A DNA stretch of 64,000 bases. Source: Caulobacteraceae bacterium. Its GTDB lineage: Bacteria > Pseudomonadota > Alphaproteobacteria > Caulobacterales > Caulobacteraceae. The notes beneath the pieces are model-generated. The model saw nothing but the letters and a program-made list of their open reading frames with translations. It did no database searches and had not been told where the DNA came from. The translations under genes and the position numbers were made by a program. Location of the stretch: positions 124,001-188,000 of the forward strand of contig CANJLK010000001.1 in the NCBI GenBank assembly GCA_947475465.1, written 5' to 3'. Shown piece after piece: positions 26,176 to 56,846 of this stretch; position 1 is the stretch's first letter, and every line of letters begins with the position of its first letter.

Positions 26176-26215
26176 AGAGGCGCGACGGCGCCCATTGGAA
26201 ACAGGGAAGGAAACC
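26176..26215 (+). promoter_or_regulatory. Conserved leader before CocE-like gene 4
   Basis: AGAGGCGCGACGGCGCCC followed by GAAACAGGGAAGGAAACC precedes the start and matches the leader of gene 1 closely and that of gene 3 partly. The rest of the 25963-26175 gap between divergent genes holds no convincing promoter or operator that I could fix. Confidence 0.45.
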
Positions 26216-28159
26216 ATGGATCAGACCTACGAGACGGGCCGCGCGCCCGGAACTCTCCATCGCCGCATGGCGATCAAGGCGGCGGCCAGCGGCGTCCTTG
26301 CCGCGGTGAGCGGGATAACGGCCCAACCCGCGATGGCGGCCGGCGTGCGGGTTTCGAAATTCGGCGTCTACGAGGGGTATTCCGAGGCTTCGTATGATGG
26401 CTGGGTGCGCACGTCGCTATACGTCCCGGTGCGCGACGGGACGAAGTTGGCGGTGGATGTCTACCGGCCCACAAAGGACAAGGCGCTGCATGCCGGGCGT
26501 CTTCCGGTCGCCTTCCAGTTCAAGCGCTACCAGCGCGCCATCGTCCAGCCGGATGGATCCGTGGCCGACATCCTTGAGGGCCACAATGACGGCGAACAGG
26601 GCCAGACAGCGCAGCGGCTGGTGAGGCACGGATATGTCATCGTCTCCGTCGACCGGCGCGGCACCGGCGCCTCCTTCGGCGTCTCCACCGACCTTTCAAC
26701 GCCGCAGGACGCCACAGATGGCTACGACATCGTCGAATGGCTGGCCAAGCAGCCCTGGTGCTCGGGCAAGGTCGGCATGTTCGGCGCGTCATACGAAGGC
26801 GAGATTCAGCCGCGAGTGGCCTCCACCGCACCGCCCCATCTGAAGTGCATCATGCCGGAGGTTTCTCCCTTCGACTGGTACTGGACCGTCCACGCCGGCG
26901 GCATCCACCGGACCACCCAGGGCGCGTTCGCGGAACATATCCACAAGGACGACACAGATCCGAACAATGGTCCGGTGGACGCCGACAAGGACCGCTCAAT
27001 GCTGAAGGCGGCGCTTGCCGAGCACGAAGCGCACAACGATTATTCCGCGCCGGCCGGGAAGATGCCCTATCGCGACAGCAAGAATCCGGTGACCGGCGAA
27101 CAGAGCTGGCTGAACCGCCACGGCGGCCACTACGCCCCGAGCCTGGCGAAATCGGGGATCGCTATCTACCACATTACCGGCTGGTTCTCGAACGTCAGCG
27201 TCCACCAGCTGACCTGGATGGCGAATGCCCGGGGGACGCCGCAGAAGCTGTTGATCGGCCCCTGGGGAGCAGGCGGTGCGCGGATGGCCGACGAGCGCGC
27301 GCTGTGCGCCGTGGAGGCCCATCGGTTCTTCGATTACTGGCTGAAGGATGTGAAGAACGGGATCATGGACGAGCCGGCGATCCACTCGTCGATCCCAAGC
27401 TCGCACAGCCGCGCGGGCGCGCCCTATGTCGGCCTTCCCGGAGGCTGGCCCCCGGCCAACCAGCAGCGCACCGAGTTCTTCCTCGATGCCGGCCGCAGCG
27501 GTTCCGCCAAGTCGGTGAATGACGGCCGTCTGACGCGGACCAAGCCGTCCGGCGCCGACGGCAAGGACGATCTGACGGTGCGCTACGATCTCCTCTACCG
27601 GGGCGGCGGCGAGAACGGCTTTGGCTTCGGCTGCGAACCCGTACCGGCCGGCAAGGCGCCGATAGATCATTCCGAGGACTTCGACGCCCACGGCCTGACC
27701 TACACGACCGAGGCCCTGGAGCACGATATCGAGGTGACGGGTCACGGCCAGGCGCGGCTTTGGGTCTCGTCCACGGCCGACGATGGGGATTTTTTCCTGA
27801 AGATCGAAGACGTCGATCCATCCGGGGCTTCCGGCTTCGTGGGCACGGGCTCGCTGCGCGCGTCCTACCGGGTTCTGGGCACGCCGCCCTACGACTACAT
27901 GGGCCTGCCCTGGCAGCGGAACTACGAGGCCGATCTGCGGCCCTTGGAAAAGGACGGGCCGACCGAACTGGTCTTCGCTCTTTTCCCGACCTCCTATCTC
28001 TTCAGGCGCGGCCACCGCATGCGGGTGACGATCACCTGCAGCGACCTGGATGTCGGACCTTCGCCGCAGGTCAGCCCGGCTCCGGTGGTCAGCCTGCACC
28101 GCTCCGCGCAACACACCTCGTCGGTGATCCTGCCGATCAATCCGGCGGTCGGTCGCTAA
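26216..28159 (+). CDS. Tat-exported CocE/NonD-family alpha/beta hydrolase, paralogue 4
   Basis: The ORF track starts at 26009, but AGGGAAGGA before ATG 26216 and the conserved leader fix a 647-residue product. It has a Tat-like leader (HRRMAIKAAASGVLAAV, AMAAG cleavage), nucleophile GASYEGE (Ser about 192) and the jelly-roll domain. Asp and His positions read GWFSNV and GPWGAGG. It carries a small insertion (GGGENGFGFG) in the linker before the jelly-roll that the others lack. It stands alone at 26 kb, divergent from the amidohydrolase operon, and its stop overlaps that of a convergent small exported-protein gene by four bases. Confidence 0.9.
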   Translation: MDQTYETGRAPGTLHRRMAIKAAASGVLAAVSGITAQPAMAAGVRVSKFGVYEGYSEASYDGWVRTSLYVPVRDGTKLAVDVYRPTKDKALHAGRLPVAFQFKRYQRAIVQPDGSVADILEGHNDGEQGQTAQRLVRHGYVIVSVDRRGTGASFGVSTDLSTPQDATDGYDIVEWLAKQPWCSGKVGMFGASYEGEIQPRVASTAPPHLKCIMPEVSPFDWYWTVHAGGIHRTTQGAFAEHIHKDDTDPNNGPVDADKDRSMLKAALAEHEAHNDYSAPAGKMPYRDSKNPVTGEQSWLNRHGGHYAPSLAKSGIAIYHITGWFSNVSVHQLTWMANARGTPQKLLIGPWGAGGARMADERALCAVEAHRFFDYWLKDVKNGIMDEPAIHSSIPSSHSRAGAPYVGLPGGWPPANQQRTEFFLDAGRSGSAKSVNDGRLTRTKPSGADGKDDLTVRYDLLYRGGGENGFGFGCEPVPAGKAPIDHSEDFDAHGLTYTTEALEHDIEVTGHGQARLWVSSTADDGDFFLKIEDVDPSGASGFVGTGSLRASYRVLGTPPYDYMGLPWQRNYEADLRPLEKDGPTELVFALFPTSYLFRRGHRMRVTITCSDLDVGPSPQVSPAPVVSLHRSAQHTSSVILPINPAVGR

Positions 28160-30139: not shown

Positions 30140-30280
30140 GCCTCCCATCGACCACCCCTCGGCGGGGACTGCTCGCCCGTGAGCGCGTCTGCTATTGTCC
30201 GGGAGCCGCCAGGCCTATGCCCGCGCGGCGGCCCGCAAGACCGTCCTTCGAACGGTCAGGGCCCAGGGAGGAAGACAGCG

Positions 30281-31567
30281 ATGGCCAGCGAAGCGACACA
30301 AGCCGATCCGGTCGCCGGCGGCGCCCCGCGCCTGGCGGACTTCAGCTTTCCCTCACCGGAGATCGCAGCCTGCCCCTATCCGTTCTACCAGGCCCTGCGC
30401 AACGAGGCGCCGGTCTATCAGTATCCGGGACGCAACGACTTTCTGATATCGCGGCGGGAAGACATCCTGCAGGTGATGCGCCAGCCGGAAATCTTCTCCA
30501 ACCGGCTCTACCTGGTCGATCCCCTGTCGCCCGGCGCCGACCGGCGCGAGGTGCTGGAAGCGCCGCCGCCCGGCGGGATCATCTCCACTTCCTTCACCCT
30601 CAGCCATTCGGACCTGCCCGAGCACAGCATCAAGCGCCAGGCCCTGAGGAGCCTCATCAACCCCAGGCACATCCACAGCTGCGAGGCGGCGATGCGGCGG
30701 ATCGCCAACGAACTGATCGACGGATTCGCCCATCGCGGCGAGGTGGAGCTGCGCAGCGAATTCGCCAATCCGCTCGCCATCCTCACCATCTGCGAGGTGG
30801 CGGGATTTCCGGCTGAGGACAAGGACACCTTCCTGAGCTGGCGGCGCGGCACGATCAACCAGGGGCGCAGGTTCCTGACTCCGGAACAGCTTGCCGCGCA
30901 GCCTCGCGAGATGGAGGGCCGGGTGCAGTACGTCGAGGCGATGATCCTCGACCGCGCCGCCCACCCACGCGACGACTTCCTCAGCGAGGCCATCCAGGCC
31001 CAGATCGCCCGCGACGGTGAGATCAACCTGCCCTATCTGACCGGCGAAATGGGGCTGGTCCTGGGGGCCGGCAGCGAATCCACCGGCCAGCTGATCGCCA
31101 ACATGATGCGCCTTTTGATCGAACATCCCGACCAGCTGGCCAAGGTGGTCGCCGATCGGAGCCTGGTTCCGGGCGCGGTGGACGAGGTGCTGCGTTACGA
31201 GACCCCGGTCCAGTGCACCTCGCGCCTGGTTATGGAAGACACCGAGGTCGGCGGCGTGGCGGTGCCCAAGGGCGCCTTCGTGCTGATGATGTATGGCGCA
31301 GCCAACCGCGACCAGACCTGGTCCTCGCCCGAAGAGTTCAACATCGAGCGGCCGGCCGTGCGCGAGCTCAGCATGGCGTTCGGGGCGGGAATCCACCGCT
31401 GCCTGGGGTCCCCGATCGCCCTGGCTGAAGGTCGGATCGCCCTGGAAGTCATGCTGGAGCGGCTGAAGAACCCGCGCTTTGCGCCTGGTCACGAGGCCGA
31501 TCGGGAGAACATCGAGAACTTCGAAAAGCGGGCGCCCAAGGCGCTGCACATCCAGTTCGACGCCTGA
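30281..31567 (+). CDS. Cytochrome P450, paralogue 1
   Basis: A 428-residue soluble bacterial P450 (start at 30281 after GGGAGGAAG; the track start at 30179 is upstream). It has the heme loop FGAGIHRCLG (Cys about 374), the ExxR helix (DEVLRYE) and the I-helix motif GAGSES, where the usual acid-Thr pair is Glu-Ser. It would need a ferredoxin and reductase, and none is encoded in the window. Its first 60 residues are nearly phrase-for-phrase like the second P450 at 44932-46227 (CPYPFYxALRxEAPVYxYPxRND). It probably hydroxylates a hydrophobic substrate. Confidence 0.95.
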   Translation: MASEATQADPVAGGAPRLADFSFPSPEIAACPYPFYQALRNEAPVYQYPGRNDFLISRREDILQVMRQPEIFSNRLYLVDPLSPGADRREVLEAPPPGGIISTSFTLSHSDLPEHSIKRQALRSLINPRHIHSCEAAMRRIANELIDGFAHRGEVELRSEFANPLAILTICEVAGFPAEDKDTFLSWRRGTINQGRRFLTPEQLAAQPREMEGRVQYVEAMILDRAAHPRDDFLSEAIQAQIARDGEINLPYLTGEMGLVLGAGSESTGQLIANMMRLLIEHPDQLAKVVADRSLVPGAVDEVLRYETPVQCTSRLVMEDTEVGGVAVPKGAFVLMMYGAANRDQTWSSPEEFNIERPAVRELSMAFGAGIHRCLGSPIALAEGRIALEVMLERLKNPRFAPGHEADRENIENFEKRAPKALHIQFDA

Positions 31568-34072: not shown

Positions 34073-35143
34073 ATGAACACGTCGGTTCAGGGAGCAGCGA
34101 CAGGATCCGACGCGGGGATCGCGGGGCCGCTGGGCGCGTGGCTGGGCGAGCGCCTGGATGCGCCGGACCTGACAGTGCGCGGGATCGTGCGTCACACCGA
34201 GGGCTTTTCCTGGCAGACCTATACGCTGGACGCCGACTGGCGCGACGCCGCTGATGGTCGGCGCCACACCCGCGGGTTCGCCGTGCGCGTCGAGCCCCGC
34301 GATGGGCTGTTGGCGCCCTACGACATCGAAGCCCAGTACCGCCTGAACCAGGTGGTCAGCCGCCAGTCGAGCGTCCCGGCACCGGCCCCGCTTTGGCTGG
34401 AGACCGATCCCGGCGTGCTGGGCATGCCCTTCTATGTGATGGAGCGCGCCACCGGCCACGTGCCGGTGCAATGGCGCGCCGAGGACCCCATCGCCTTTCC
34501 GACGCCGCAGGCGCGCCGCGCCATCGGCCTTGAGTTCGTGGATATCCAGGCGGAAATCCACGCCATCGATTGGCGGTCCGACCTGGCCTTCCTGGCGTCG
34601 GACACCGATCCGGCCCGCTCGGCCCAGGCCCAGCTGGACTACTGGGTGGACCGCTATGAGCGCGGGCGGATGGTCGAACTTCCGGTGGTCCGGGAGGCCA
34701 TTGCCTGGCTGCGGGTCAACCTGGAGCCCAGCGACCGGCTGGTCCTCTGTCATGGGGACTACCGGATCGGCAACTTCATGGTCCGCGACGGGCGCGTGGT
34801 CGCGGTGTTTGACTGGGAACTGGCCCATGTGGGCGACCCGGTCGAGGACCTTGCCTACGCGGGCCTGCCGCTCTGGCGGGGCCGGGATCCCAGGCTGTCG
34901 CATCTCCTCGCGCCCGAGGATTTCTTCGCGCGCTACGCCGAGCGCACCGGCTTCGCTGTGTCGCCGCAGGCGTTCCGCGCCTGGACCATCTTCGGCCTGG
35001 TCAAGGCGGCGGCGACCTATGTTCAAGGCTCCCGGGCCTTCGAGGAAGGGCGCACGGGCGACCTGCGCCTGGCGGTAATGGGCCACCAGATCGTCCATGT
35101 GCTGCGCCATCTGGCCCGGGCCCTGGACGGGGAGTCGATCTGA
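34073..35143 (+). CDS. APH-fold phosphotransferase (LvaA/ACAD10-kinase-like)
   Basis: I start the 356-residue product at ATG 34073; the track's 33689 start adds a basic unstructured stretch. It carries the kinase catalytic loop LCHGDYRIGNFMV (HGDxxxxN) and the metal motif VFDWELAHVGDPVEDLAY. Bacterial proteins of this type occur in acyl-CoA clusters. The characterised example LvaA, together with its small partner LvaB, phosphorylates 4-hydroxyacyl-CoA in levulinate breakdown. The next gene encodes a DUF6285-like small protein that overlaps by one base, the same arrangement. Function here is inferred. Confidence 0.82.
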   Translation: MNTSVQGAATGSDAGIAGPLGAWLGERLDAPDLTVRGIVRHTEGFSWQTYTLDADWRDAADGRRHTRGFAVRVEPRDGLLAPYDIEAQYRLNQVVSRQSSVPAPAPLWLETDPGVLGMPFYVMERATGHVPVQWRAEDPIAFPTPQARRAIGLEFVDIQAEIHAIDWRSDLAFLASDTDPARSAQAQLDYWVDRYERGRMVELPVVREAIAWLRVNLEPSDRLVLCHGDYRIGNFMVRDGRVVAVFDWELAHVGDPVEDLAYAGLPLWRGRDPRLSHLLAPEDFFARYAERTGFAVSPQAFRAWTIFGLVKAAATYVQGSRAFEEGRTGDLRLAVMGHQIVHVLRHLARALDGESI

Positions 35144-35571
35144 TGCAGAACTCGCCGCAGCGCCTGCTGGCCGGCGCCGCCCAGGCCCTGCGCGAGGTGG
35201 TGGGGCCGGCGGTGGCCGAGGCCTATCCGCGCGCCCAGCTGGCGGCGGCGGCCGAATTGCTCGACAACCTGGCCCAGCGTGTCGAGTGGCGCCGCGACGA
35301 CGGTGACGAGATCGTGGGCCGCGCCCGTCCATTGCTGGAGGACGCGACCGCCGCGGCCGGTCCTACGGACCTGCAGCGCGCCCGCGCCTGGCTGGTGGCT
35401 GTTCCGGGGCCCGGCGAGCCCGGACCTGTGCTCGAGGCGCTGGCCGAGGCGCAGACCTGGGCCGCCGCGCACGCGCCGGACGGCGAACTGGCGGGCCGGC
35501 TTCGCGCCTTCGCCAGGTGGGATCTCGAATGCGAAGTGCGCCGTCTGCGCAACGGCATGTTCAAGGATTAG
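35143..35571 (+). CDS. DUF6285-like small partner of the kinase
   Basis: The 142-residue, mostly helical, acidic protein overlaps the kinase stop by one base (TGATG), so the two are coupled. Recognisable patterns are the N-terminal LLAGAAQALREVVGPAV and the closing DLECEVRRLRNGM. I identify it as DUF6285-like from this context and motif set; it resembles the accessory LvaB type. No catalytic residues are evident. Confidence 0.7.
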   Translation: MQNSPQRLLAGAAQALREVVGPAVAEAYPRAQLAAAAELLDNLAQRVEWRRDDGDEIVGRARPLLEDATAAAGPTDLQRARAWLVAVPGPGEPGPVLEALAEAQTWAAAHAPDGELAGRLRAFARWDLECEVRRLRNGMFKD

Positions 35572-35583
35572 CAGGAACCCCGG

Positions 35584-36618
35584 ATGATCACCCCGCAGGA
35601 CGACCGTCCCCACCCCGTGCCGCCGCAGGCCTTCATGGTCTGGAAGGAGAACTGGGTGTTCCCGGCTCTGGACCGTCGCAACAGGATCGCGACCCTGTTC
35701 CACATCTCGCTGCGGCCAGGCCAGGGCGAGGGCATCTTCACAGCGAAGTTCACCATCGATGGCGAGGAGCACCGCTACGTTGGCCGAAGCCCCGTGCCGC
35801 GCGACCTGACCCAGTTCCAGCCGGTGGCCAACGAGCGGCTGCGCTTCGACATCGTGATCCCCGGCCAGCGGTTCCGCATCCGCTTCGACGGCGACGACAT
35901 CGCCGCCGATATCACCTACGACGCGCGCTTCCCGGCCTGGGATTTCGCCGACGGCCCCCTGGCGCCGGGCGAGTCCGTGCTGGGGGACATCGGTCGCCAC
36001 GTCTTTCCCTACAACCACTACGAACAGTCCCTGACCCATACCGGGACCATCCGTTTCCTCACCGGGCCCAGGGCCGGCGAGACGGTGGACCTGTCGGGCT
36101 TCGCCTGCCGCGACCACTCCTGGGGATGGCGCGAAGACCTGCGGTTCGACTTCCACCACTGGCTCTGCGCGGCGTTCGAGGACCGCTTCATCGAAGGCTC
36201 GGTCATGCAGGAGGACTTCTATCCGCACGGGCCGAAGGTTGGCGGCTGGATTTCCACGCCCGCGGGCAACGAGGCCATGGCCGCCATCGACACGCGCGAC
36301 GCCTACTGGATGGACCCCACCGGCCCCTTCGGACCCCTGGACCGCGACGTGCGCTACCGGCTGACCACGGTGGGCGGCAGGACCGCGAATATCATCGCCC
36401 ACATCCCGAAGTCCTATGGCCGGCTCTACCTGGACGCCCGTTCGCGCGACCGGGCGACGGTCTATCACGACGTCCAGATCTTCTGCGATTTCACCGACGC
36501 CGACACCGGAGAGCGCGGGGAGGGCGTGCTGGAGATCGGCAAGCGGGTGCAAGGCGCCGGCGTGGCGGACGCCGAGGCCTTCCGGCCGAAGGCCAAGGCC
36601 ATGGTGCAGCCGCGGTGA
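35584..36618 (+). CDS. AttH/CrtC-like (DUF7064/7065-type) two-barrel protein
   Basis: The 344-residue protein has no signal peptide. It contains two beta-rich halves: the first ends about GDDIAADITYDARFPAWD, and the second contains the conserved segment FACRDHSWGWRE followed by HHWLCAAFEDRF. This resembles lipocalin-like AttH/CrtC hydratase-type proteins often found in lipid or terpenoid degradation clusters. Activity is unknown. Its stop overlaps the downstream alcohol dehydrogenase GTG by four bases, implying coupled expression and a shared pathway. Confidence 0.6.
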   Translation: MITPQDDRPHPVPPQAFMVWKENWVFPALDRRNRIATLFHISLRPGQGEGIFTAKFTIDGEEHRYVGRSPVPRDLTQFQPVANERLRFDIVIPGQRFRIRFDGDDIAADITYDARFPAWDFADGPLAPGESVLGDIGRHVFPYNHYEQSLTHTGTIRFLTGPRAGETVDLSGFACRDHSWGWREDLRFDFHHWLCAAFEDRFIEGSVMQEDFYPHGPKVGGWISTPAGNEAMAAIDTRDAYWMDPTGPFGPLDRDVRYRLTTVGGRTANIIAHIPKSYGRLYLDARSRDRATVYHDVQIFCDFTDADTGERGEGVLEIGKRVQGAGVADAEAFRPKAKAMVQPR

Positions 36619-37655
36619 TCCGCGCCGCGGTCCTGGGCGACAAGGCGCGACTGGATCTCCGGTCCGTCGAGCTGCGCCCGCCGGGGGCCGGCGAGGTGAG
36701 GCTGGCCATCGACGCCTGCGGCATCTGCGGGACGACGCTCGACGCCTGGAAGGCGCCGCCGCCCGGGGACTCCACCGGCATCTGGGGCCACGAGGTGGCA
36801 GGCCGCGTCACGGCGCTGGGGCCCGGCGTCGCGGGCCTGGCGCTCGGCGACCGGGTCTGCGTGGAGCCCAACCTGGCGGTGGCTTGCGGCGCCTGCGAGG
36901 ACTGCCTGGCCGGCGCGCCGTTCGCCTGCCGCAACCGGCTTGGCCTGCCCACCTGGGGGTTCGCCGACGAGATGATCGTGCGCCAGGCCGGCGCGCTGCC
37001 GGTGCCGGCGGGCCTGCCGCAGCGGACCGCCACCCTCGCCGAGCCCCTGGCCAGCGTGATCCACGGCATGCGCAACAGCGTCGCGGCGTTGCGGCATGGC
37101 GGCCGGCTGGAGGGCGCGAGGGTGGGCGTCATCGGCGCTGGGGTGCTCGGTTTGCTGTCCGCCGCCGTGGCGCGCCAGATGGGCGCTGCCGCCGTGACGG
37201 TGCTGGCGCGCCACCCGCACCAGCGTGCAGCCGCCGAGGCGCTGGGCGCGGTGGCGCTCGGCGACGACGCGCAGGGCTGGGCGGCCTTGCGGGCCGAGGC
37301 GCCGTCCCTGACCGTCCTGGCGGCCGGGGGCGGAGAGCCCCTGCTGGACCGCGCGCTCTCCGTGACGGCGCGGCGCGGCGAGGTGGTGGTCCTGGCGCTG
37401 CTGGCCGGTGACCAGCCGGTGAACGCCCGGCGCGCGGTCCTGCGCGACCAGCGGATAGGTTTCTCGATCTCCTATGGAGAGCTCGACGGCCTGCGGGACA
37501 TGGATGTGGCGCTGGCGATCCTGGCCGCCGACCCGGAGGGGTTCGCGCCGCTGGTCACCGACGCCTTTTCGCTCGCCGACGTGGAGGCTGCGTTTCATGC
37601 GGCGGCCGACCGGGCCGGTGGACGCCTGCGTGTGGTTGTCGAGCCACGCGGCTGA
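36615..37655 (+). CDS. Zinc-dependent medium-chain alcohol dehydrogenase
   Basis: The start is GTG 36615, within the GTGA overlap; the longer ORF in the track is an artefact of an open frame through the previous gene. The 346-residue protein has catalytic zinc ligands (CGICGT, GHE), a structural zinc loop (CGACEDCLAGAPFAC) and the Rossmann motif GVIGAGVLGLLSAAVA. Such enzymes oxidise secondary alcohols or polyols with NAD(P). Fourth gene of a coupled series with the kinase, DUF6285 and AttH-like genes. Confidence 0.92.
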   Translation: MIRAAVLGDKARLDLRSVELRPPGAGEVRLAIDACGICGTTLDAWKAPPPGDSTGIWGHEVAGRVTALGPGVAGLALGDRVCVEPNLAVACGACEDCLAGAPFACRNRLGLPTWGFADEMIVRQAGALPVPAGLPQRTATLAEPLASVIHGMRNSVAALRHGGRLEGARVGVIGAGVLGLLSAAVARQMGAAAVTVLARHPHQRAAAEALGAVALGDDAQGWAALRAEAPSLTVLAAGGGEPLLDRALSVTARRGEVVVLALLAGDQPVNARRAVLRDQRIGFSISYGELDGLRDMDVALAILAADPEGFAPLVTDAFSLADVEAAFHAAADRAGGRLRVVVEPRG

Positions 37656-37787: not shown

Positions 37788-39719
37788 ATGGCTACCAGGG
37801 CTCATGGCACGTCACCGTCCAAGTCTGCCGGCGCGATTGACCGGCGAGATATTCTGACCATCGCCGCCGGCGGCGTGGCCTCAGCGGCGTTCGGAAGCTT
37901 TTCACCCGGCCCAGCCGAGGCCGCCGAGCGAGTCTCGTCCCTCGGCGTCTACAGCGGCTATTCCGGTGAAGCCTACGATGGCTGGGCGCGGACCTCGGTG
38001 TACGTGCCGGTTCGCGACGGGGTTAAGCTCGCGGTCGATATCTTCCGTCCGACCGCCGGCGGCGCGGTGCATGCCGAGCGCCTGCCGATGGTGTGGATTC
38101 CCAAGCGCTATCAGCGCGCCACGATCCGTCCGGATGGGTCCCTGGTCACCACCATCGACACCGTGGCCGGGACGGTAAGCTATGACCTCACCGCCCAGCG
38201 GCTGCTGCGGCACGGCTATGTGGTGGCCGCCGTCGACCGGCGCGGCACCGGCGCGTCGTTCGGCGTGCATTCCGATTTCAGCGATCCGCTCACCGCCCGC
38301 GACGGCTACGACCTGACCGAATGGTTCGCCGCCCAGCCCTGGTGCGACGGCAATGTCGGCATGTTCGGCGCGTCCTATGAGGGCGAGATGCAGTTGCGGG
38401 TGGCGGGCACGGCGCCGCCGCACCTGAAGGCGATCATGCCCGAGGTTTCACCCTTCGACTGGTACCGGCTGGTGCAGGGCGGCGGCATCTATCATGGGAC
38501 CCAATTCACCGGCTTCCAGAAAATGATCGGCGCCCAGGACGTCGATCCGAACAACGCGCCGGTGGACGAGGACAAGGACCGCGCCCTGCTGACCGCCGCG
38601 CTTGCGGAGCACAGGGCGCACAACGACTACTCCGCGACACTCGGCAAGCTGCCCTGGCGCGACAGCGTCAACCCGGTGACGGGCGAGCGCAACTGGCTCA
38701 AGCGGCACGGTGGGACCTATACGCCCGGCCTGTCGGCCTCAGGGATCGCCGTCTATCACCGCGTCGGCTGGTTCGCCCGCGTGGCCTTCGATCAGCTCCT
38801 CTGGTTCGTGAACCACAAGCAGGGGCCGAAGAAGATGCTGATCGGGCCGTGGGGCGGCGGGGTCGCCGAGACGCCCGAAGACCGCGCCATGTGGACGGCC
38901 GAGGCTCACCGCTTCTTCGACCATTTCCTGAAGGGCGTGCCCAACGGGATCATGGACGAGCCGCCGATCCATTCCTCAGTCGCGACGGCGCACAGCTATG
39001 GCGTTGGCGAACCGTGGCGGGGGCTCAGCCAATGGCCGCTGCCCAATGAGCAGAAGGTGCGGTTCTTCTTCGAGGCGGGTCCGACCGGATCGACCAAATC
39101 GGCGAACGATGGGCGGCTTGTCCGGACCCAGCCCGGCAAGTCCGGGGGCCGTGACGACTATCTGGTCAACTACGACATCGCCTATGCAGGCGGCAACGAT
39201 CCGGCCCGGCCAGGCGCGCCCGCCGTAGACCACGCCGCCTATGACGCCCAGGGCCTCACCTACACCACCGATCCGCTGGACCACGACGTGGAGATCACCG
39301 GCCATGGGATCGCGCACCTGTGGGTGACCTCGAGCGCCGACGACGGCGACTTCTGGGTGAAGGTCGAGGATGTCGCGCCGGACGGCCGCTCGACTTACGT
39401 GTCGCGCGGCGCGCAGCGGGCGTCCCGGCGCAAGCTGGGCGCGCCGCCTTACGACTATATCGGCATGCCCTGGGAAACCTGCCTGGAAGCCGACGCCGCG
39501 CCGCTGCCAAAGGGTGTGCCCACCGAACTGGTCTTCGCGCTGACGCCGATCTCCTACATCGCGCGGCGCGGCCATCGCCTGCGGGTGACCGTCACCGGCG
39601 CGGACCGCAATATCGGCGAGACGCCCAGGCTCAGCCCGGCGCCCACCATCAGCCTGCACCGCTCCGCCCGACACGCATCTTCGGTGACCTTGCCGATCAT
39701 TCCGCCGTCCAGGACTTAA
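37788..39719 (+). CDS. Tat-exported CocE/NonD-family alpha/beta hydrolase, paralogue 5
   Basis: The 643-residue protein starts after a strong GGGGGAGGAAG site. It has a twin-Arg leader (DRRDILTIAAGGVASAAFG) cleaved near AEAAE, the nucleophile GASYEGE (Ser about 196) and the jelly-roll domain. It is the most divergent copy: the loop at the Asp position reads VGWFARVAFDQ, the His position GPWGGGV, and the stretch after the nucleophile RLVQGGGIYHG. The leader block of genes 1, 3 and 4 is absent. It lies 132 bases after the alcohol dehydrogenase gene. Confidence 0.9.
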   Translation: MATRAHGTSPSKSAGAIDRRDILTIAAGGVASAAFGSFSPGPAEAAERVSSLGVYSGYSGEAYDGWARTSVYVPVRDGVKLAVDIFRPTAGGAVHAERLPMVWIPKRYQRATIRPDGSLVTTIDTVAGTVSYDLTAQRLLRHGYVVAAVDRRGTGASFGVHSDFSDPLTARDGYDLTEWFAAQPWCDGNVGMFGASYEGEMQLRVAGTAPPHLKAIMPEVSPFDWYRLVQGGGIYHGTQFTGFQKMIGAQDVDPNNAPVDEDKDRALLTAALAEHRAHNDYSATLGKLPWRDSVNPVTGERNWLKRHGGTYTPGLSASGIAVYHRVGWFARVAFDQLLWFVNHKQGPKKMLIGPWGGGVAETPEDRAMWTAEAHRFFDHFLKGVPNGIMDEPPIHSSVATAHSYGVGEPWRGLSQWPLPNEQKVRFFFEAGPTGSTKSANDGRLVRTQPGKSGGRDDYLVNYDIAYAGGNDPARPGAPAVDHAAYDAQGLTYTTDPLDHDVEITGHGIAHLWVTSSADDGDFWVKVEDVAPDGRSTYVSRGAQRASRRKLGAPPYDYIGMPWETCLEADAAPLPKGVPTELVFALTPISYIARRGHRLRVTVTGADRNIGETPRLSPAPTISLHRSARHASSVTLPIIPPSRT

Positions 39720-44931: not shown

Positions 44932-46227
44932 TTACTGCGCGTCGAATTCGATGTGCAGTTGCTTCGGCACGCGCTTTTGGAAGTTGTCGATGTTCTCGCG
45001 TTCGGCGTCATGGCCGGGCGCGAAGCGCGGGTTCTTCAGGCGGTCGAGCATCACCGCCAGGGCGATGCGGCCCTCGGCGATGGCGATGGCGTTGCCCAGG
45101 CACCGGTGCGGTCCGCCGCCGAACGCCATGTTCAGCTCCGGAATGCCCGGACGGTCGACACGGAAAGCTTCCGGATCGCCCCACGATTCGTCGTGGTTGG
45201 CCGAGCCGTAGAGCATCAGGACATAGGCCCCCTTGGGGATCGGCACACCGCCCACCTCGGTGTCCTGCATGACCAGGCGCGAGGTCCACTGGGTCGGCGC
45301 CTCGAAGCGCAGGGCCTCGTCGATGACGTTGGGGATCAGTTCGCGGTCGTCGAGCACCTTTTTCAGTTCCGAAGGATTCTCGATCAGCAGCTTCCAGACG
45401 TTGGCGACCAGCCGTGAGGTGGTCTCATTGCCCGCCGTCAGCACCAGGCCGATTTCGGAGACCAGGTAGGGCAGGTTGATCTCGCCGTCGCGCTCGACCT
45501 GGGCCTTCACGACGCCGGTGATGAAGTCGTCCTTGGGGTTGGCCAGACGATCTCGGATGATCGCGGCGCAGTAGAGGTCGCGCTCGGGGATGTCCTCGTC
45601 CTGGGCCTTGCGTTGCTCGTCGGTCAGGTAGCGCCGGCCGTGGCCGGTGCCGATGCGGTTCCAGCCCAGGAAGATGGCGCGGTCTTCCGGCGGATAGCCG
45701 GCGAGCTCGCAGATGGTCAGCAGGGCCAGCGGATCTGCGAACTGGGTGCGAAGCTCGCACTTGCCCTCGTGGATGAAGGTGTCGATCAGTTCGTTGGCGA
45801 TGCGCCGCAGGGTGTCTTCCGAGGCCCGGATATAGCGTGGATCGACCAGCGAGCGCAGGGCCCGGCGCTTGATGCTGTGCTCGGGGGGATCGGAGGCCGT
45901 CAGACCAAACGAGGTCTGGATGGCCGTGCCCGGGGTGTGCGGCGGGTTTTCGACCCAGCCCTTTTGCGAGCCCTGCAGCATGCGCGGGTCACCAAGGTAG
46001 GTGCGGTTGGAGAACACCTCGGTGTTGCGCAGCACGGCCATGATGTCGTCGCGGCGCGAGATCAGGTAGTCGTTGCGATCGGGGTATTTGTAGACCGGGG
46101 CCTCGGCCCGCAGCGCCGCGTAGAACGGGTACGGGCAGGCCGTCACCTCAGGCGACGGGAAGGCAAAATCCTTCAGGCAGCGTTGGGCGCCCGTGTCCGG
46201 AGCCGCATCCTTGGTTTCGCTCGCCAT
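44932..46227 (-). CDS. Cytochrome P450, paralogue 2
   Basis: Start at ATG 46227 follows GGAGGA; the track start is 114 residues upstream in the regulatory region. The 431-residue protein has heme loop FGGGPHRCLG (Cys about 376), ExxR (DEALRFE) and I-helix TAGNETT with the canonical Glu-Thr pair, unlike paralogue 1. It ends with the family-like KNPRFAPGHDAERENIDNFQKRVPKQLHIEFDA, echoing the end of paralogue 1. It diverges from a TonB receptor across a region with operator-like sites. Confidence 0.95.
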   Translation of the reverse strand: MASETKDAAPDTGAQRCLKDFAFPSPEVTACPYPFYAALRAEAPVYKYPDRNDYLISRRDDIMAVLRNTEVFSNRTYLGDPRMLQGSQKGWVENPPHTPGTAIQTSFGLTASDPPEHSIKRRALRSLVDPRYIRASEDTLRRIANELIDTFIHEGKCELRTQFADPLALLTICELAGYPPEDRAIFLGWNRIGTGHGRRYLTDEQRKAQDEDIPERDLYCAAIIRDRLANPKDDFITGVVKAQVERDGEINLPYLVSEIGLVLTAGNETTSRLVANVWKLLIENPSELKKVLDDRELIPNVIDEALRFEAPTQWTSRLVMQDTEVGGVPIPKGAYVLMLYGSANHDESWGDPEAFRVDRPGIPELNMAFGGGPHRCLGNAIAIAEGRIALAVMLDRLKNPRFAPGHDAERENIDNFQKRVPKQLHIEFDAQ

Positions 46228-46300
46228 TGTTTCCTCCATTGCTGGGTCGCCTCGCGGGGGCGGTTCCCTTTGCGCGCGACAATAGCCGGACGTCCTGTCC

Positions 46301-46309
46301 TGTCCGACA
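46301..46309. promoter_or_regulatory. TGTCCGACA operator candidate upstream of P450
   Basis: A perfect 9-base odd palindrome, 74 bases before the P450 start, identical to the core of the sites at 43109 and 55224. Confidence 0.45.
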
Positions 46310-46524
46310 AAATCGAGCTCTGGCAATATACTACCGTCCGTTTGATTCAAGAGGGCAGGCGCAGTTGCGCGGCGGATCGGGCCGCCGAATCGTCCCGGGG
46401 CGCCTGGGATGGCAGACCCTCTCGGCGCCCCAGGGGCAGATGTAGATTTGCAACAGATCGCCAACTTAGTGGCGCTCCAAACAAATGTATGTCCGAATTT
46501 CCGGACTTGCGACCCTCCGAGGGA

Positions 46525-46535
46525 TTGACGGACAA
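46525..46535. promoter_or_regulatory. TTGACGGACAA operator-like site upstream of TonB receptor 2
   Basis: It matches TTGTCNGACAA at all but one outer position and overlaps the possible -35 of the receptor promoter, 84 bases before the start. Confidence 0.35.
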
Positions 46536-46618
46536 AATTGCAAACATCATTAGAGCCGCGCTGCGCCATGAGGGCGCTCCGTGTCAGAAATCAATCCGCA
46601 TAAATGCGGGGGGGAAAC

Positions 46619-48961: not shown

Positions 48962-48989
48962 TCTAACGTCTAGAATGTGATCGAAAGTC

Positions 48990-49023
48990 GAGGCGTGGGG
49001 CGTTCCCCACGCCTCTTCTTTTT
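48990..49023 (+). terminator. Rho-independent terminator after TonB receptor 2
   Basis: GAGGCGTGGGG and CCCCACGCCTC form a perfect 11-bp stem around CGTT and are followed by TTCTTTTT. It is the clearest intrinsic terminator in the window and isolates the receptor from the crotonase gene. Confidence 0.93.
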
Positions 49024-49066
49024 GCTCAAATGGTTCGGACCAAGAAAACCAAAAAGGGAGTCAAAC

Positions 49067-49924
49067 ATGGCCCGGGATATGGAAGACGAAAACGGCCTGG
49101 TGGTCGGCGCCTACACCGAGAAGCGCGGTGAGGTGGGCTGGATCATCATGCGCGACTACGACAAAACGTCGAACGCCTCGCTGACCGCCAAGAAGTACAT
49201 CCACATCATGCAGGCGGTCGGCCAGGCCCTGCACGACTTCCGCTACGATCCCGAAGTCCGCTGCATCGTGCTGACCGGCGAGAACGACGGCGAGTTCTAC
49301 CGCGTGGCCCGCGGCGTCTCCTACGACGACCCGGGCAACCGCGCGCGGCTCAATCCCATCAACCGCAAGGGCCCCGTGCTCGGCAACACCTTCCCGAACG
49401 CCTTGGAACTGTTCGCCGTGATTGAAAAGCCGATCATTGCGCGGGTGAACGGCGACACGATCGGTTTGGGTCAGGCCTTCTTCTGGGGATGCGACATCAT
49501 CGTTGCGCGGGAAGACGCGATCATCTCCGACGTCCACACCGGCATGCAGACGGTCATCGATTCCAACGGCGAGGTCCGCGGCTTCCCCTGGGCGGTGACG
49601 CCGGGCGATGGGGCCCAGTCCTTCCTGGCCATGTTCATGCCGCCCACGTTGATGAAGGAATATCTGTTCACCTCTCCAGTGTGGTCGATGAAGCGGCTGG
49701 AGCAGATGAACATCGTCAACTACGCGGTGCCCATGAGCGAATTGGACGCCAAGGTCGACGAGATGGTAGCCAAGATCCTGAAGCGGCCGTCGTCGGTCCT
49801 GGCCCACGCCAAGCGGGTCGCGCAGAAGCGCCTGATCGAGAACTGGAACCTGCACCAGGACCTGGCCATGGCCTACGAGCACCTGGACTTCTTCACCCAC
49901 GCCGCCCAGGGCAATATGGACTGA
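49067..49924 (+). CDS. Enoyl-CoA hydratase/isomerase (crotonase)-family protein, atypical
   Basis: Start ATG 49067 follows AAAAGGGAG; the track start at 48977 lies in the terminator. The 285-residue protein has the crotonase fold pattern (VRCIVLTGENDGEF; NGDTIGLGQAFFWGCDIIVARED). The first oxyanion motif (usually FSAGAD) reads FYRVARGVSY, and the catalytic Glu region reads VHTGMQTVIDSNGEVRG with an insertion. It is probably a diverged hydratase, hydrolase or isomerase acting on a CoA thioester. Adenosine-rich AACCAAAAAGGGAG leader suggests efficient translation. Confidence 0.82.
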   Translation: MARDMEDENGLVVGAYTEKRGEVGWIIMRDYDKTSNASLTAKKYIHIMQAVGQALHDFRYDPEVRCIVLTGENDGEFYRVARGVSYDDPGNRARLNPINRKGPVLGNTFPNALELFAVIEKPIIARVNGDTIGLGQAFFWGCDIIVAREDAIISDVHTGMQTVIDSNGEVRGFPWAVTPGDGAQSFLAMFMPPTLMKEYLFTSPVWSMKRLEQMNIVNYAVPMSELDAKVDEMVAKILKRPSSVLAHAKRVAQKRLIENWNLHQDLAMAYEHLDFFTHAAQGNMD

Positions 49925-49953
49925 TCGCGGCGAGATACTGGCTGCGAATGGTG

Positions 49954-49993
49954 AGGCCGTCGAACCGACCGGTTCGACGGCCTTCGTCATTTT
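49954..49993. terminator. Bidirectional terminator between crotonase and NTF2-like genes
   Basis: A perfect 13-bp stem (AGGCCGTCGAACC / GGTTCGACGGCCT) with loop GACC is followed on + by TCGTCATTTT. It lies between two convergent genes. Confidence 0.8.
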
Positions 49994-50021
49994 GGCCTGA
50001 CTTGTCGTCAGATTGCGAGCC

Positions 50022-50501
50022 TCAGTTGGCGGAACGGCGGCCCCATCGGCCGGCCAGCTGGCGCCAGCGGTCGGCCACGGCGGCGAACTGGCCCTTGCGT
50101 TCGCGCAGCAGAGCTTCGCTTGGCGGCACGATCCAGGTCATGGTCATGGACGAAAACCGCCATGCGCCGTCGTCGCCGCGCACATATTCGTCCTGATAGT
50201 GGCCAAGGGCGCCGCGGTTGTTGAACGACCAGAAGCCCTTCGCCTTGCCGGGTCCGGTGATCTCGAGGATCGGCATCTGTGCGACGTGGACGTGCAGCTC
50301 CCCGGCCAGGTTCTTGCTCAGGGCGGCCACGAAGGCGGGCGCGCCCTCGTAGTCGCCGCTGCCCACCGAGAAGCGACAGTCAGGCGTGAACAGGGTTTCG
50401 AAATCCTCCCAGGCCAGGGCGTCGAGCAGCAGGCAGTAGCGGGCGCGCAACTGCCTGATGGCCTCCAAGTCGATCAGGTCCTGCAAGGTCATCTGGGTCA
50501 C
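50022..50501 (-). CDS. NTF2-like (SnoaL/dehydratase-type) protein
   Basis: Three starts are possible. I prefer GTG 50501, because GGAGG lies five bases upstream; the ATG three codons on is the alternative, and the track's Met at 50561 is unsupported. The ~159-residue product has the SnoaL_4 pattern: LIDLEAIRQLRARYCLLLDALAWEDFETLFTPDC, then HVAQMPILEITGPGKAKGFW and a terminal basic helix. The family includes dehydratases, isomerases and epoxide hydrolases of steroid and terpene pathways. Similar in plan to the gene at 59700. Confidence 0.78.
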   Translation of the reverse strand: MTQMTLQDLIDLEAIRQLRARYCLLLDALAWEDFETLFTPDCRFSVGSGDYEGAPAFVAALSKNLAGELHVHVAQMPILEITGPGKAKGFWSFNNRGALGHYQDEYVRGDDGAWRFSSMTMTWIVPPSEALLRERKGQFAAVADRWRQLAGRWGRRSAN

Positions 50502-50623
50502 GGCGTCCTCCGGCTTTTCTCGCGCACAATCCGCGATCTGCGTCGCGGCGATGCGGCCCAAGGTGCAGTATCCGGCTGGCCGTGGAAAGGCGTCACATCC
50601 GGGCGCAGGCGCAGGGGAACAAT

Positions 50624-51523
50624 ATGGATCTGGGCTTTGTCGGACTGGGCGCCATGGGTCGCGAGATGGCTGGGCGGCTGCTAGACGCCGGCCACGATGT
50701 GGCGGTGTTCAACCGCACGCCGGCCAGGATGGCGCCCTTGACGGCGCGCGGCGCCAGGGGCGCCGAAAGCCTTGCGGACGCCGCCCGCCACGGGGGTCTG
50801 GTGCTGACCATGCTGGCCAATGACGCGGCCCTGCGCGAAGTGGCCCTGGGGCCGGAGGGCCTGATCGCCAGCCTGCCCAGCGGAGGGATTCACGTGGCCA
50901 TGGGCACCCATAGCCTGGACCTGATCAACGCCCTGGCTGAGGCCCATGCGGCGGCCGGGCAGTGGCTGGTCGCCGCCCCCGTCCTGGGACGCCCAGAAGC
51001 GGTTGCGGCGGGACGGCTGGGGATCGTCGTGGCTGGGGCCGACGAAGCATTGCGGCGTTGCCGTCCGGCGCTCGAAGCCATTGGGCCGCGGATCGTCGAG
51101 GCTGGATCGTCGCCCGCCGCCGCGGCTTCTGTGAAGATCGCCAACAACATGCTGCTGGCCTGCGCCATCGAGGCCTTGGGCGAGGCCTTCGCCCTGACCG
51201 ACGCCTGCGGCGTGGACGCGGACCTGTTCCTTTCCGTGATCACCGGCGGGCTGTTCGCCTGTCCGGCCTACGCGACCTACGGCGGACTGATCGCAACCCA
51301 GCGGTTCGAGCCTGCGGGCTTTACCGCCGCCCTGGGCCTGAAGGACGTCAATCTGGCGCTGGCGGCGGGTCTGGGGGTGGGGGTCGCCTTGCCGGCCGCG
51401 GAAGTCTGCCGTGACGGGCTGGCCGACGCGGTCGCCCGGGGCCAGGGGGACCTCGACTGGGCGGTGATGTCGCGGCGCTCGGGCCCGCCCGAGCCGCCCT
51501 ACTCGCCGGCCGCGAAGACGTAG
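50624..51523 (+). CDS. 3-hydroxyisobutyrate-dehydrogenase-family oxidoreductase
   Basis: The 299-residue enzyme (ATG 50624 after CAGGGGAAC) has the classical motifs LGFVGLGAMGREMAGRLL for NAD(P), FNRTPARM, and KIANNMLLACAIEALGEAF with the catalytic Lys. It is closer to textbook 3-hydroxyisobutyrate dehydrogenase than the two paralogues at 24040 and 31570. It overlaps the convergent GntR gene by 25 bases, so the C-terminal end may be less conserved. Confidence 0.9.
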   Translation: MDLGFVGLGAMGREMAGRLLDAGHDVAVFNRTPARMAPLTARGARGAESLADAARHGGLVLTMLANDAALREVALGPEGLIASLPSGGIHVAMGTHSLDLINALAEAHAAAGQWLVAAPVLGRPEAVAAGRLGIVVAGADEALRRCRPALEAIGPRIVEAGSSPAAAASVKIANNMLLACAIEALGEAFALTDACGVDADLFLSVITGGLFACPAYATYGGLIATQRFEPAGFTAALGLKDVNLALAAGLGVGVALPAAEVCRDGLADAVARGQGDLDWAVMSRRSGPPEPPYSPAAKT

Positions 51524-52266
51524 TCGGGCAGGCGGTCCATGCCGCGCTGGATGCGGCGCACGTGGGCCCGCGCCGCGCGCTCGGCCTGGGATCCATCATT
51601 GGCGACGATGGCGGCGGTCATCTTCTGGTAGTCGTTGTAGAGGTCGTTCTGGGTCATGATCACGTAGCGGGGCGAGACCTGGGTGCGCATCAGGTAGACG
51701 TGCATGCTGGGCAGGATGCGGATCAGTTCGTTGTTGCCGCCGACCGTGGCCATCACGCGGTAATAGGCGTTACGGGCGCGCACGAAGCCGGCGAATTCCT
51801 CGGGCCGGTTCTTGTGGGCCATGAGCGCGGCCAGGTTGTCGCGCATCAGCCGCGCGCCGGCCGTGTCGCACTGTTCGGCCGCCAGGCGGGCGGCCAGGCC
51901 CACCATCGACTCCATCACCTGCAGGATGTCGCGGACATCGTTGCGCGACAGGGTGCGGACATAGGCGCCCTTGTGGAAGGTGAGCACGACGACGCCCTCG
52001 ACCTCCAGCTTCTTGAGGGCTTCGCGTACGGAGCCGCGGCCCACTCCGTAGGTGACAATGAGATCGGCTTCGATGAGCCGCTGGCCGGGGACATAGCGGC
52101 CTTCGTAGATGCCATCGAGGATCTCGTTGAACACCCGCTCGGAAGGACTGTTGGCCTCGCCGTCGGCCCGCGGGCTGCGCGCGCTCGCGTCGCGGCCCAC
52201 GACCTTGCGCGTGACGCCTGTCCCCTCGCTTGCCGCGGGGGCCCGCTGTCCGATCGACCTTGCCAT
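51499..52266 (-). CDS. GntR-family transcriptional regulator, FCD subfamily
   Basis: The 255-residue regulator has a ~35-residue basic N-terminal extension and a winged helix (SERVFNEILDGIYEGRYVPGQRLIEADL, VGRGSVREALKKLEVEGVVVLTFHKGAYV). A helical FCD ligand domain follows. It lies among four TTGTCCGACAA-like sites at divergent promoters and is the obvious candidate for binding them. Its own start region is within a 17-base duplicated segment. GGAGGA stands ten bases before the ATG. Confidence 0.92.
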   Translation of the reverse strand: MARSIGQRAPAASEGTGVTRKVVGRDASARSPRADGEANSPSERVFNEILDGIYEGRYVPGQRLIEADLIVTYGVGRGSVREALKKLEVEGVVVLTFHKGAYVRTLSRNDVRDILQVMESMVGLAARLAAEQCDTAGARLMRDNLAALMAHKNRPEEFAGFVRARNAYYRVMATVGGNNELIRILPSMHVYLMRTQVSPRYVIMTQNDLYNDYQKMTAAIVANDGSQAERAARAHVRRIQRGMDRLPDYVFAAGE

Positions 52267-52345
52267 ACAGCCCAGGTCCTCCGACCTCTATCCAATCCGC
52301 GACGTCAGCCGCCGCGACGAGACCCTGAGCCATACAGCCAAGGTC
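52262..52345. repeat. 17-bp direct repeat at the GntR start codon
   Basis: GCCATACAGCCCAGGTC (52262-52278) and GCCATACAGCCAAGGTC (52329-52345) differ at one base. On the minus strand both contain ATGGC, the first being the GntR start, so a second, out-of-frame ATG exists 67 bases upstream. It may be a duplication or a binding element. Confidence 0.7.
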
Positions 52346-52407
52346 GCTCTTCGATTCCCGTCAATCCCGCCTTGCCCGACGCGCGGTCGCCTGATGGAAC
52401 GGCGGCG

Positions 52408-53145
52408 TCAGGTTTTGGCGACCGCGGCTTCGCGTCCGAACAGCGCCTTGAGCGACGCGGCCTTTTCCGCGACCGAGATCTGACTGGTCTGGGCCGCGAA
52501 ATCTGCGCCCGCCGCCCGCCCGCGCTGGACGGCCGGCCGCGCGCCCACCCGATCGAGCCAATGCTTGATGTTGGGAAATTCGCCAATATCCAGCTTCATG
52601 AAGCTGTGGCCGATGACGAAGGGCCAGGTGGCCATGTCGGCGATGGAGTAGTCGCCGGCGATGAAATCGCGGCCTTCCAGCCGTTCGTTCAGCACCCCAT
52701 ACAGCCGCTTTACCTCGCGGTCGTAGCGGTCGCGGGCGTAGGTGAGCTGGTCGGGATTTTCAGCCAGCAGGGGCGCATAGATCAGAAAATGCCCAAGCTG
52801 GCCGGTCATCGGGCCAAGACCCGACAACTGCCACATCAGCCACTGCTCGACCTCGGCGCGCGCGCGCGGGTCCTCCGGATAGAACTGGCCGCTCTTGCGA
52901 CCCAGATAGAGCAGGATGGCGCCGCTCTCGAAGATCGAGATCGGCTTTCCATCCGGACCATCGGGATCGATGATGGCCGGCATCCGATGGTTGGGGCTCA
53001 GCTTGACGAAGTCTGGCCGGTGCTGATCGCCCGCGCGGATGTTCACGCTGGTGAGGGTGTAGGGAAAACCCATCTCCTCCAGCGCGATGGTCACCTTCCA
53101 GCCGTTGACCGTCGGAAAGAAGAAGACCTCTATCGGCGCGCTCAC
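52408..53145 (-). CDS. Glutathione S-transferase (YfcG/YghU-like)
   Basis: The start is GTG 53145 within the GTGA overlap with the upstream gene; the track's longer ORF reads antisense-like residues. The 245-residue protein has a thioredoxin-fold N-domain (FFFPTVNGWKVTIALEEMG, SPNHRMPAIID, ESGAILLYLG) and an all-helical C-domain (FIAGDYSIADMATWPFVIG). The pattern is that of nu-class GSTs with disulfide-reductase or glutathione-conjugate activity. It is the last gene of a coupled operon. Confidence 0.9.
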   Translation of the reverse strand: MSAPIEVFFFPTVNGWKVTIALEEMGFPYTLTSVNIRAGDQHRPDFVKLSPNHRMPAIIDPDGPDGKPISIFESGAILLYLGRKSGQFYPEDPRARAEVEQWLMWQLSGLGPMTGQLGHFLIYAPLLAENPDQLTYARDRYDREVKRLYGVLNERLEGRDFIAGDYSIADMATWPFVIGHSFMKLDIGEFPNIKHWLDRVGARPAVQRGRAAGADFAAQTSQISVAEKAASLKALFGREAAVAKT

Positions 53146-53576
53146 GTCGCCGCGAACCCGACCTTGGCCATGCCCGCCTGGGCGCTTTCGATATCCTGGT
53201 CGGGCATGCCGCCGCTGACGCCCACGCCGCCCACCAGGACGCCGTCGATCACCAAGGGGAAGCCGCCGCCGAAGACGACGACCCGCTCGCCTTGCGGAAT
53301 GCCGGTCATGAGGGGGCCGTTGTCCTTGATCATCGGATACCAGACGTCCGTGGCCAGGCCGAAGCCCGCCGCGGTGTAGGCCTTGTCGTGCGCCCACTTG
53401 ATCGCCAGCAGCGGCGCCCCGTCCATGCGCAGGAAGGCCTTCAGCACCCCGCCCGCGTCGCAGACCGAGATGGCCGCTGCCCGGCCGTTCTCGGCGGCAT
53501 GGGCGGCGATCGCGGCAACCAGGGCGTGGGCGGTGTCAGCGGAAACGGTTCCGCCCGGATAGCTTTTCGCAGTCAT
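53142..53576 (-). CDS. GlcG/HbpS-family heme-binding-like protein
   Basis: The ATG 53576 start (AAGGA upstream, ATGA overlap with the previous stop) gives 144 residues. It shows the family patterns ISVCDAGGVLKAFLRMDGAP, KWAHDKAYTAAGF and GGFPLVIDGVLVGGVGVSGG. Members bind heme or cobalamin in some species, and many are simply linked to catabolic operons. No signal peptide, so cytoplasmic. It sits between a PaaD-like protein and a GST. Confidence 0.88.
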   Translation of the reverse strand: MTAKSYPGGTVSADTAHALVAAIAAHAAENGRAAAISVCDAGGVLKAFLRMDGAPLLAIKWAHDKAYTAAGFGLATDVWYPMIKDNGPLMTGIPQGERVVVFGGGFPLVIDGVLVGGVGVSGGMPDQDIESAQAGMAKVGFAAT

Positions 53577-53974
53577 ACGGTTTCCTTGTTGGTTGCGCAG
53601 GTGGGGCAGGCCTGGGCGCATTTGGCGGCGATATTGGCCAGGCGCTTTTCCCGCCATTCGGCGATCTTGGCCAAGGCCTTTGGCGTCGCGTTGTCCTCGG
53701 TCCAGATGGCGTCGCCGCGAATCTGCACCTGGACATCGGTGACGCCCTCAACCGCGCCGGCGGCGATCTGGATGTCGCGCAGGATGTCGTAGGCGTAGGT
53801 GCAGGTCGGGTCGTCGAGCAGCAGGCGCACATGCGCCTCGCCGCCTTCGCCGACGGTGACGGCGTCGATCATCCCGAGTTCGCCGAAGCTCAGCCGGGTG
53901 CCGTTCAGGCGGCTGCAGGGATCGAGCACGTCGCCGACGGCGTGCTCGACCTGGGTTTGCAGGAGACTGGCCAT
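53573..53974 (-). CDS. MIP18/PaaD-like metal-sulfur cluster assembly protein
   Basis: The 133-residue protein has DUF59-like features (VLDPCSRLNGTRLSFGELGMID, DPTCTYAYDILRDIQIA) and a Cys-rich tail (AAKCAQACPTCATN). PaaD-type proteins help mature Fe-S clusters in oxygenases. The Cys tail is not typical of the basic domain and may bind metal. Coupled to the HbpS-like gene by a four-base overlap and 23 bases after the amidohydrolase. No oxygenase with a Fe-S cluster is adjacent, so the client is unknown. Confidence 0.75.
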   Translation of the reverse strand: MASLLQTQVEHAVGDVLDPCSRLNGTRLSFGELGMIDAVTVGEGGEAHVRLLLDDPTCTYAYDILRDIQIAAGAVEGVTDVQVQIRGDAIWTEDNATPKALAKIAEWREKRLANIAAKCAQACPTCATNKETV

Positions 53975-53997
53975 GGTCGGTTTCCCTCCCGTCCCGA

Positions 53998-55074: not shown

Positions 55075-55222
55075 GCCGTCCTCCTGCGGGACCTGCGGAT
55101 GCGCAGGGTCCGTGCGTTGCCTCCGGAGGTGGAACAGGACGGGTCAATCCCTGACCTCGTTTCCCCACCCCGTTCTGTCGTGGACCCGTCTCTTGGCGAT
55201 CCTGCGACCCTGGCACTGTGGT

Positions 55223-55233
55223 TTGTCCGACAA
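55223..55233. promoter_or_regulatory. TTGTCCGACAA operator candidate (amidohydrolase/thiolase promoter)
   Basis: A perfect 11-base odd palindrome in the 248-base gap between divergent operons. On the minus strand a TTGACA (55242-55237) stands just before it, so the site would lie in the promoter spacer and a bound repressor would block transcription of the amidohydrolase operon. It fits the FadR-subfamily layout GT-M-N-K-AC. Confidence 0.55.
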
Positions 55234-55322
55234 CTTTGTCAACTCAACAGTCGTCCAGGCGCTAGCTCTGCGCACAGAAACATGTCTAATCGCGGCAACC
55301 AAAAGACCGCCGGGGAGGTGGA

Positions 55323-56792: not shown

Positions 56793-56846
56793 AAGATAGA
56801 GGAAGGGCGACGGGCCCGTGGTCCGCGCCCAGGAGAGGATGTTCGA

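Follow-up and report, generated by a model that had tools for sequence, protein, structure and literature searches.

A hindered hydroxyl group is chemically hard to remove. The strategy of converting it into a phosphate ester, from which the phosphate is then expelled, has so far been characterised in an anaerobic cholesterol-degrading bacterium, Sterolibacterium denitrificans, in which a 40-kDa kinase of the phosphotransferase family (25-HSK) acts first and a separate lyase second (PMC8449060, PMC7411048, PMC11061730). The hydroxyl that the kinase phosphorylates is the tertiary one at C25 of steroids, and the elimination of the phosphate results in an alkene (PMC8449060, PMC7411048). As late as 2024 the lyase was termed putative (PMC11061730), and our survey of the literature found no description of it beyond this putative step; solved structures of the 25-phosphosteroid lyase (25-PSL) were released in January 2026. 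Since 25-HSK was reported to be active on its own, with no lyase candidate near its gene (PMC8449060), neither a partner protein nor genetic linkage is required in this bacterium. A related chemistry is found in LvaA/LvaB/LvaC of Pseudomonas putida and in the kinase-dehydrogenases ACAD10 and ACAD11, where an acyl-CoA dehydrogenase eliminates the phosphate from a CoA ester (PMC6692424, PMC11342911, PMC12440821).

The locus described here lies in a stretch of 64,000 nucleotides, which we call the window, and consists of four genes that follow one another closely on the + strand (window 34073-37655) and form an operon. An earlier note on this DNA had drawn attention to the first two genes, a kinase and a small protein, as a pair resembling LvaA/LvaB; a lyase-like gene adjoins them as the third. 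The features used below are the following.

34073..35143, + strand: APH-fold small-molecule kinase, 356 aa, with catalytic Asp229, Asn234 and Asp247 (from Pfam APH, motifs, PDB relatives and a clade of its own)
35143..35571, + strand: small all-helical putative kinase partner (P0002), 142 aa (from the TGATG overlap and the co-occurrence with the kinase)
35584..36618, + strand: putative phosphate-eliminating lyase, a DUF7065/Rv3169-like two-domain beta protein, 344 aa, with RDHSWG at 176-181 (from the AF2 model, PDB fold matches and profile)
36615..37655, + strand: zinc-type alcohol dehydrogenase, fourth gene of the operon, whose role is proposed below (from Pfam ADH_N at 1e-18, the junction sequence and the reading frame)
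30179..31567, + strand: cytochrome P450 (Pfam p450, 1.7e-23), about 2.5 kb upstream of the kinase, with other genes between

We propose that the genes at 34073-36618 probably constitute a module for the ATP-dependent dehydration of an alcohol, made of a kinase, a helical partner and a phosphate-eliminating lyase. The small gene and the kinase overlap by one base (TGATG, where the ATG of the former lies over the stop codon of the latter), and the GTG start of the alcohol dehydrogenase overlaps the stop of the lyase-like gene in a GTGA junction. A promoter scan gave no signal above chance. With a G+C content of 72.0%, against 67.6% for the window, the operon is at or near the maximum of the window; less than 1% of the equal-sized stretches reach its value. 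The closest relatives of the kinase that we found are 46-53% identical to it and come from Acidimicrobiia and an unclassified MAG, which, together with the composition, makes a horizontal acquisition of the operon plausible. Kinases of the same genus are at most 35% identical to that of the window, and no kinase of the genus type was found in its own genome, which is 87.6% complete.

The kinase is a clear member of the APH family, as the earlier note had read it: it matches Pfam APH (PF01636) with an E of 5e-32 and 111.9 bits, for a cut-off of 23.2, and its catalytic motifs are intact (HGDYRIGN, i.e., HGDxxxxN, at 227-234 and DWE at 247-249). Its relatives in the PDB include 9o56, 9fsg, 3dxp, ACAD11 and 3ats, the last of which we take to be Rv3168 of Mycobacterium tuberculosis. 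From the entry name, the size and the neighbouring entry codes, we infer that 9fsg is 25-HSK. In a tree of 75 rows, whose groups were sampled by different searches and which shows their separation and not their full diversity, the window kinase falls in a separate clade (clade b, 10 rows, support 99/89), while the kinases associated with DUF6285 (30 rows, support 100/99) and those of the genus type (clade c, 29 rows, support 100/99), which is its sister clade, each form their own. The solved kinases 3dxp, ACAD11, 9o56 and 9fsg are nearer to the window clade than the DUF6285 kinases are. Modelling of ACAD11 led to the proposal that two arginines contact CoA (PMC12440821). The corresponding positions are alanines in the window kinase, a weak and non-decisive discriminator because the DUF6285 kinases also lack arginines of the ACAD11 type.

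The small protein is modelled by AF2 with six helices, all helical (mean pLDDT 83.7), in agreement with the small helical protein that the earlier note had placed at 35143-35571. Its assignment to DUF6285 did not hold. Even at an E of 10 the protein did not match this Pfam family (PF19802), and the family model, which gave matches in control genomes, gave none in the genome of the window. A fold search with the model revealed no significant solved relative, and tblastn of plasmids found no relatives of P0002. The relation visible between profiles is remote: the DUF6285 group and the P0002 group align with an hhalign probability of 43% and an E of 2.4e-4 (best of 25 column shuffles, 0.033), and DUF6285 aligns with the partner group of the genus type, to which three additional members were added, with an E of 2.2e-6 and 89% (best shuffles about 0.03). 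These weak relations among the three partner groups share one N-terminal register, and bridging partners at two loci (L164 and L168) each match two of the profiles, that of L168 matching weakly both DUF6285 and P0002. The sequence similarities suggest that the small protein is probably at most a remote relative of DUF6285 and that the kinase partners are likely to form one ancient, fast-evolving family. Across 399 genomes of the phylum, close relatives of the kinase and matches to the P0002 profile were found in the same 3 genomes, adjacent every time. Hence, the pairing of the two genes is not a chance arrangement. Five DUF6285 loci (L012, L015, L016, L020 and L028) have APH and DUF6285 in one open reading frame, followed in L020 by an SDR in the same frame, which suggests natural fusions of kinase and partner. 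We found no mention of DUF6285 in the literature.

Which genes accompany the kinase elsewhere? All 9 clade-b loci have a lyase-like gene (DUF7064/7065-like, with the motif RDHSWG) within 5 kb of the kinase. A lyase-like gene is equally close in 23 of the 25 clade-c loci, and the other two are on stretches of 7-8 kb that end with their contigs. For the DUF6285 loci the figure is 2 of 23. Acyl-CoA dehydrogenases show another distribution at the same distance: 13 of 23 DUF6285 loci, 4 of 9 clade-b loci and 1 of 25 clade-c loci. These counts are of related loci within clades and not of independent events, and the stronger point is that the association of kinase and lyase recurs in different lineages and gene orders. 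The converse search, with the lyase as the starting point, gave 13 strong matches among the other genomes of the class, and for 9 of these a kinase is no more than 1.5 kb away. The trio of kinase, helical partner and lyase-like gene is conserved across phyla: it is present in three loci of Acidimicrobiia or unclassified MAGs, on plasmids of Sulfitobacter, Rhodobacteraceae QY30 and Variovorax, and in two further genomes (G462 and G635). In clade c, a P450 directly adjoins the kinase in 19 of 25 loci. Most of the sampled loci of the genus type, which come from relatives within the genus (L135-L153), have the P450, the kinase and the partner with a lyase-like gene nearby. The order at L153 is partner, kinase and P450, with the lyase-like gene divergent and, after it, TetR, a hydrolase and a TonB receptor. 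The three annotated DUF6285 plasmid pairs (Massilia, Azoarcus and Paroceanicella) are all beside acyl-CoA dehydrogenase and SDR genes. Three loci (L174, L115 and L118) have kinases of the DUF6285 type with an adjoining lyase-like gene of the DUF7065 type, and could be intermediate between the two systems.

These neighbourhoods bear directly on the reading of the earlier note, in which the kinase and its partner, like LvaAB, would add a phosphate to a 4-hydroxyacyl-CoA so that beta-oxidation continues; the elimination would then fall to an acyl-CoA dehydrogenase whose gene lies elsewhere. The shared fold and the small partner in the same position agree with it, as do the acyl-CoA dehydrogenases of the four clade-b loci, the CoA ligase in one cluster (L036), and the CoA-transferases, thiolase-like and enoyl-CoA hydratase-like proteins encoded at 48977-62055 of the window. 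Yet the partner is not a DUF6285 protein, the kinase is outside the DUF6285 clade, the constant neighbour is the lyase-like gene and not an acyl-CoA dehydrogenase, and, more weakly, the proposed CoA-contact arginines are absent. The earlier note had already remarked that no acyl-CoA dehydrogenase is adjacent, and our Pfam scans of window genes revealed none. We consider this reading unlikely. The likeness to LvaA/LvaB, which we assessed through DUF6285 loci, ACAD11-type kinases and published papers on the assumption that LvaB is a DUF6285 protein, stands for a kinase with a small helical partner and fails for the kinase clade and the neighbouring gene. Likewise, the principle of removing a hydroxyl through its phosphorylation can probably be kept, while the assignment to the family and the identity of the eliminating enzyme have to be replaced, and probably also the acyl-CoA as substrate. 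Given the partner, the clade, the neighbourhood, the lyase and, weakly, the arginines, the 4-hydroxyacyl-CoA is left without specific support.

The preferred reading as a dehydration module depends largely on the third gene (35584-36618), whose product, judging from its modelled fold, is most likely the eliminating enzyme, in place of an acyl-CoA dehydrogenase. The protein matches the Rv3169 family with an E of 5e-7 and DUF7065 with an E of 5e-4, in both cases below the cut-off of the model. Its AF2 model, built from an alignment of nine rows with both subfamilies mixed, is a two-domain beta protein (pLDDT 78, pTM 0.80), and the top five fold matches in the PDB are all 25-PSL (9g4c/9fzn/9g2i; probability 1.00, E about 1e-11, TM 0.61-0.64). 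The wider profile of the nine-member family retrieved only 25-PSL from the PDB (E 3e-62); a narrow profile of the window protein and its three closest relatives retrieved no 25-PSL match, and phmmer with the protein alone gave nothing useful. When profiles were compared, the window subfamily matched the 25-PSL-like group at 95.5% and an E of 1.4e-8 over the N-terminal 200 residues, with shuffles no better than 0.08. By sequence, the window subfamily is thus distant from 25-PSL, and the link runs through intermediates. Eight residues (His10, Gln148, Arg176, Asp177, Ser179, Trp180, Gly181 and Arg183) do not vary among the fourteen sequences compared, of which 9fzn is one. The entry 9g4c, whose title names phosphate and an alkene product, has the motif RNRSWG, with Asn in place of the family-invariant Asp; this suggests a trapping mutant and, hence, an important role for this Asp (Asp177 here). 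All of the AttH/CrtC superfamily may, however, share the D-x-S-W-G motif. Sphingobium sp. Tom strains carry a distant homologue of the lyase-like protein on ten plasmids (e.g., at 10004-10963 of the plasmid of Sphingobium sp. TomTYG64, L037), where its neighbours are choline-dehydrogenase-like and FAD-binding proteins, an acyl-CoA dehydrogenase and a TonB receptor.

The fold has other occupants. The next matches of the model, kievitone hydratase and AttH, are nearly as good and are followed by [4+2] pericyclases, so that the protein could also be a hydratase, catalyse some other reaction or simply bind a ligand. The locus could then belong to the biosynthesis or modification of natural products or lipids, with the AttH-fold protein as a hydratase, a cyclase or a carrier and the kinase as a modifying or resistance-type phosphotransferase. 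This would suit the kievitone hydratase and the pericyclases, the fact that APH kinases are often detoxifying, and the weak match to the Rv3169 family, for which, as for Rv3168, we know of no function. We nevertheless think it improbable, since 25-PSL is the best match, the kinase and the lyase are tightly coupled over several lineages, and the surroundings (esterases, transporters, TonB receptors and P450s) are catabolic. Finally, the phosphate could be the leaving group of an isomerase, a hydratase or a substitution ending in a rearrangement or a ring closure and not in a simple alkene, but even though the fold hosts hydratases and pericyclases and the final product cannot be predicted from sequence, this is very improbable, as the closest characterised relative, 25-PSL, makes an alkene according to the title of 9g4c.

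The genes around the operon encode CocE/NonD hydrolases, esterases, two P450s, TonB receptors, transporters of the sugar and aromatic-acid types, lactonases and CoA-transferases. They fit a catabolic island, without naming its substrate. Five hydrolases of the CocE/NonD type (Peptidase_S15 + PepX_C) are encoded in the window (8297-14356, 26201-28159 and 37788-39719), three of which form a tandem array in front of a TonB-receptor-like gene, and the two P450s (30179-31567 and 44932-46569) are 59% identical to each other.

We infer the two reactions, the role of the partner and the kind of substrate of the dehydration module as follows. The APH-fold kinase would transfer a phosphate from ATP to the hydroxyl of a hydrophobic metabolite. 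The alcohol is likely to be hindered, secondary or tertiary, free rather than bound to CoA, and possibly steroid- or terpene-like. The 142-aa helical protein may bind and support the kinase, as LvaB does for LvaA, and the DUF7065-type protein would eliminate the phosphate and so create a carbon-carbon double bond, in the manner of 25-PSL. The zinc alcohol dehydrogenase could have a different alcohol of this pathway as its substrate. In clade c, the P450 beside the kinase may supply the hydroxyl; by analogy, the P450 upstream of the operon (30179..31567), which is not part of it, is a possible source here.

If this is true, a compact dehydration system paid for with ATP is present in many bacteria, among them aerobic ones. 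It would provide a testable role for DUF7064/7065 and for the small kinase partners, families without a known function, suggest an assay for Rv3168-Rv3169, and offer linked kinase-lyase pairs for the biocatalytic conversion of alcohols into alkenes. We also put forward, as a tentative generalisation that may well prove too broad, that there is a widespread and genetically linked desaturation system in aerobic bacteria of the type "hydroxylate - phosphorylate - eliminate." It would comprise a P450, a kinase with an obligate helical partner and an AttH-fold phospho-lyase, and would turn unactivated carbons into alkenes in the catabolism of lipids and terpenoids, the anaerobic sterol pathway being a special case.

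How does the locus compare with the known systems? It shares with 25-HSK/25-PSL a phosphotransferase-family kinase, here of the APH type and intact, and an AttH-fold lyase with the RDxSWG motif, here a protein resembling 25-PSL; both are predicted here from sequence or model. It differs in that the genes adjoin and are packed with a helical partner and an alcohol dehydrogenase, and in that the lyase is of a distant subfamily, whose narrow profile does not reach 25-PSL. The hydroxylases of S. denitrificans are Mo enzymes, whereas a P450 lies beside the kinase in the clade-c relatives. With Lva, ACAD10 and ACAD11 it has in common an APH-type kinase, the removal of a hydroxyl through a phosphate ester and, for P. 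putida, an interacting partner of 12 kDa, but the constant neighbour here is a lyase-like protein of the DUF7065 type, and the Pfam scans of window genes gave no acyl-CoA dehydrogenase. The pairs of DUF6285 (PF19802) and phosphotransferase also have a small helical protein overlapping the stop codon of the kinase, to which the partner found here is only remotely related in sequence. Lastly, Rv3168 is an APH-fold relative of the kinase and the lyase-like gene weakly matches the Rv3169 family (E 5e-7, below the cut-off), so that Rv3168-Rv3169 of M. tuberculosis may be a related system of kinase and lyase-like protein.
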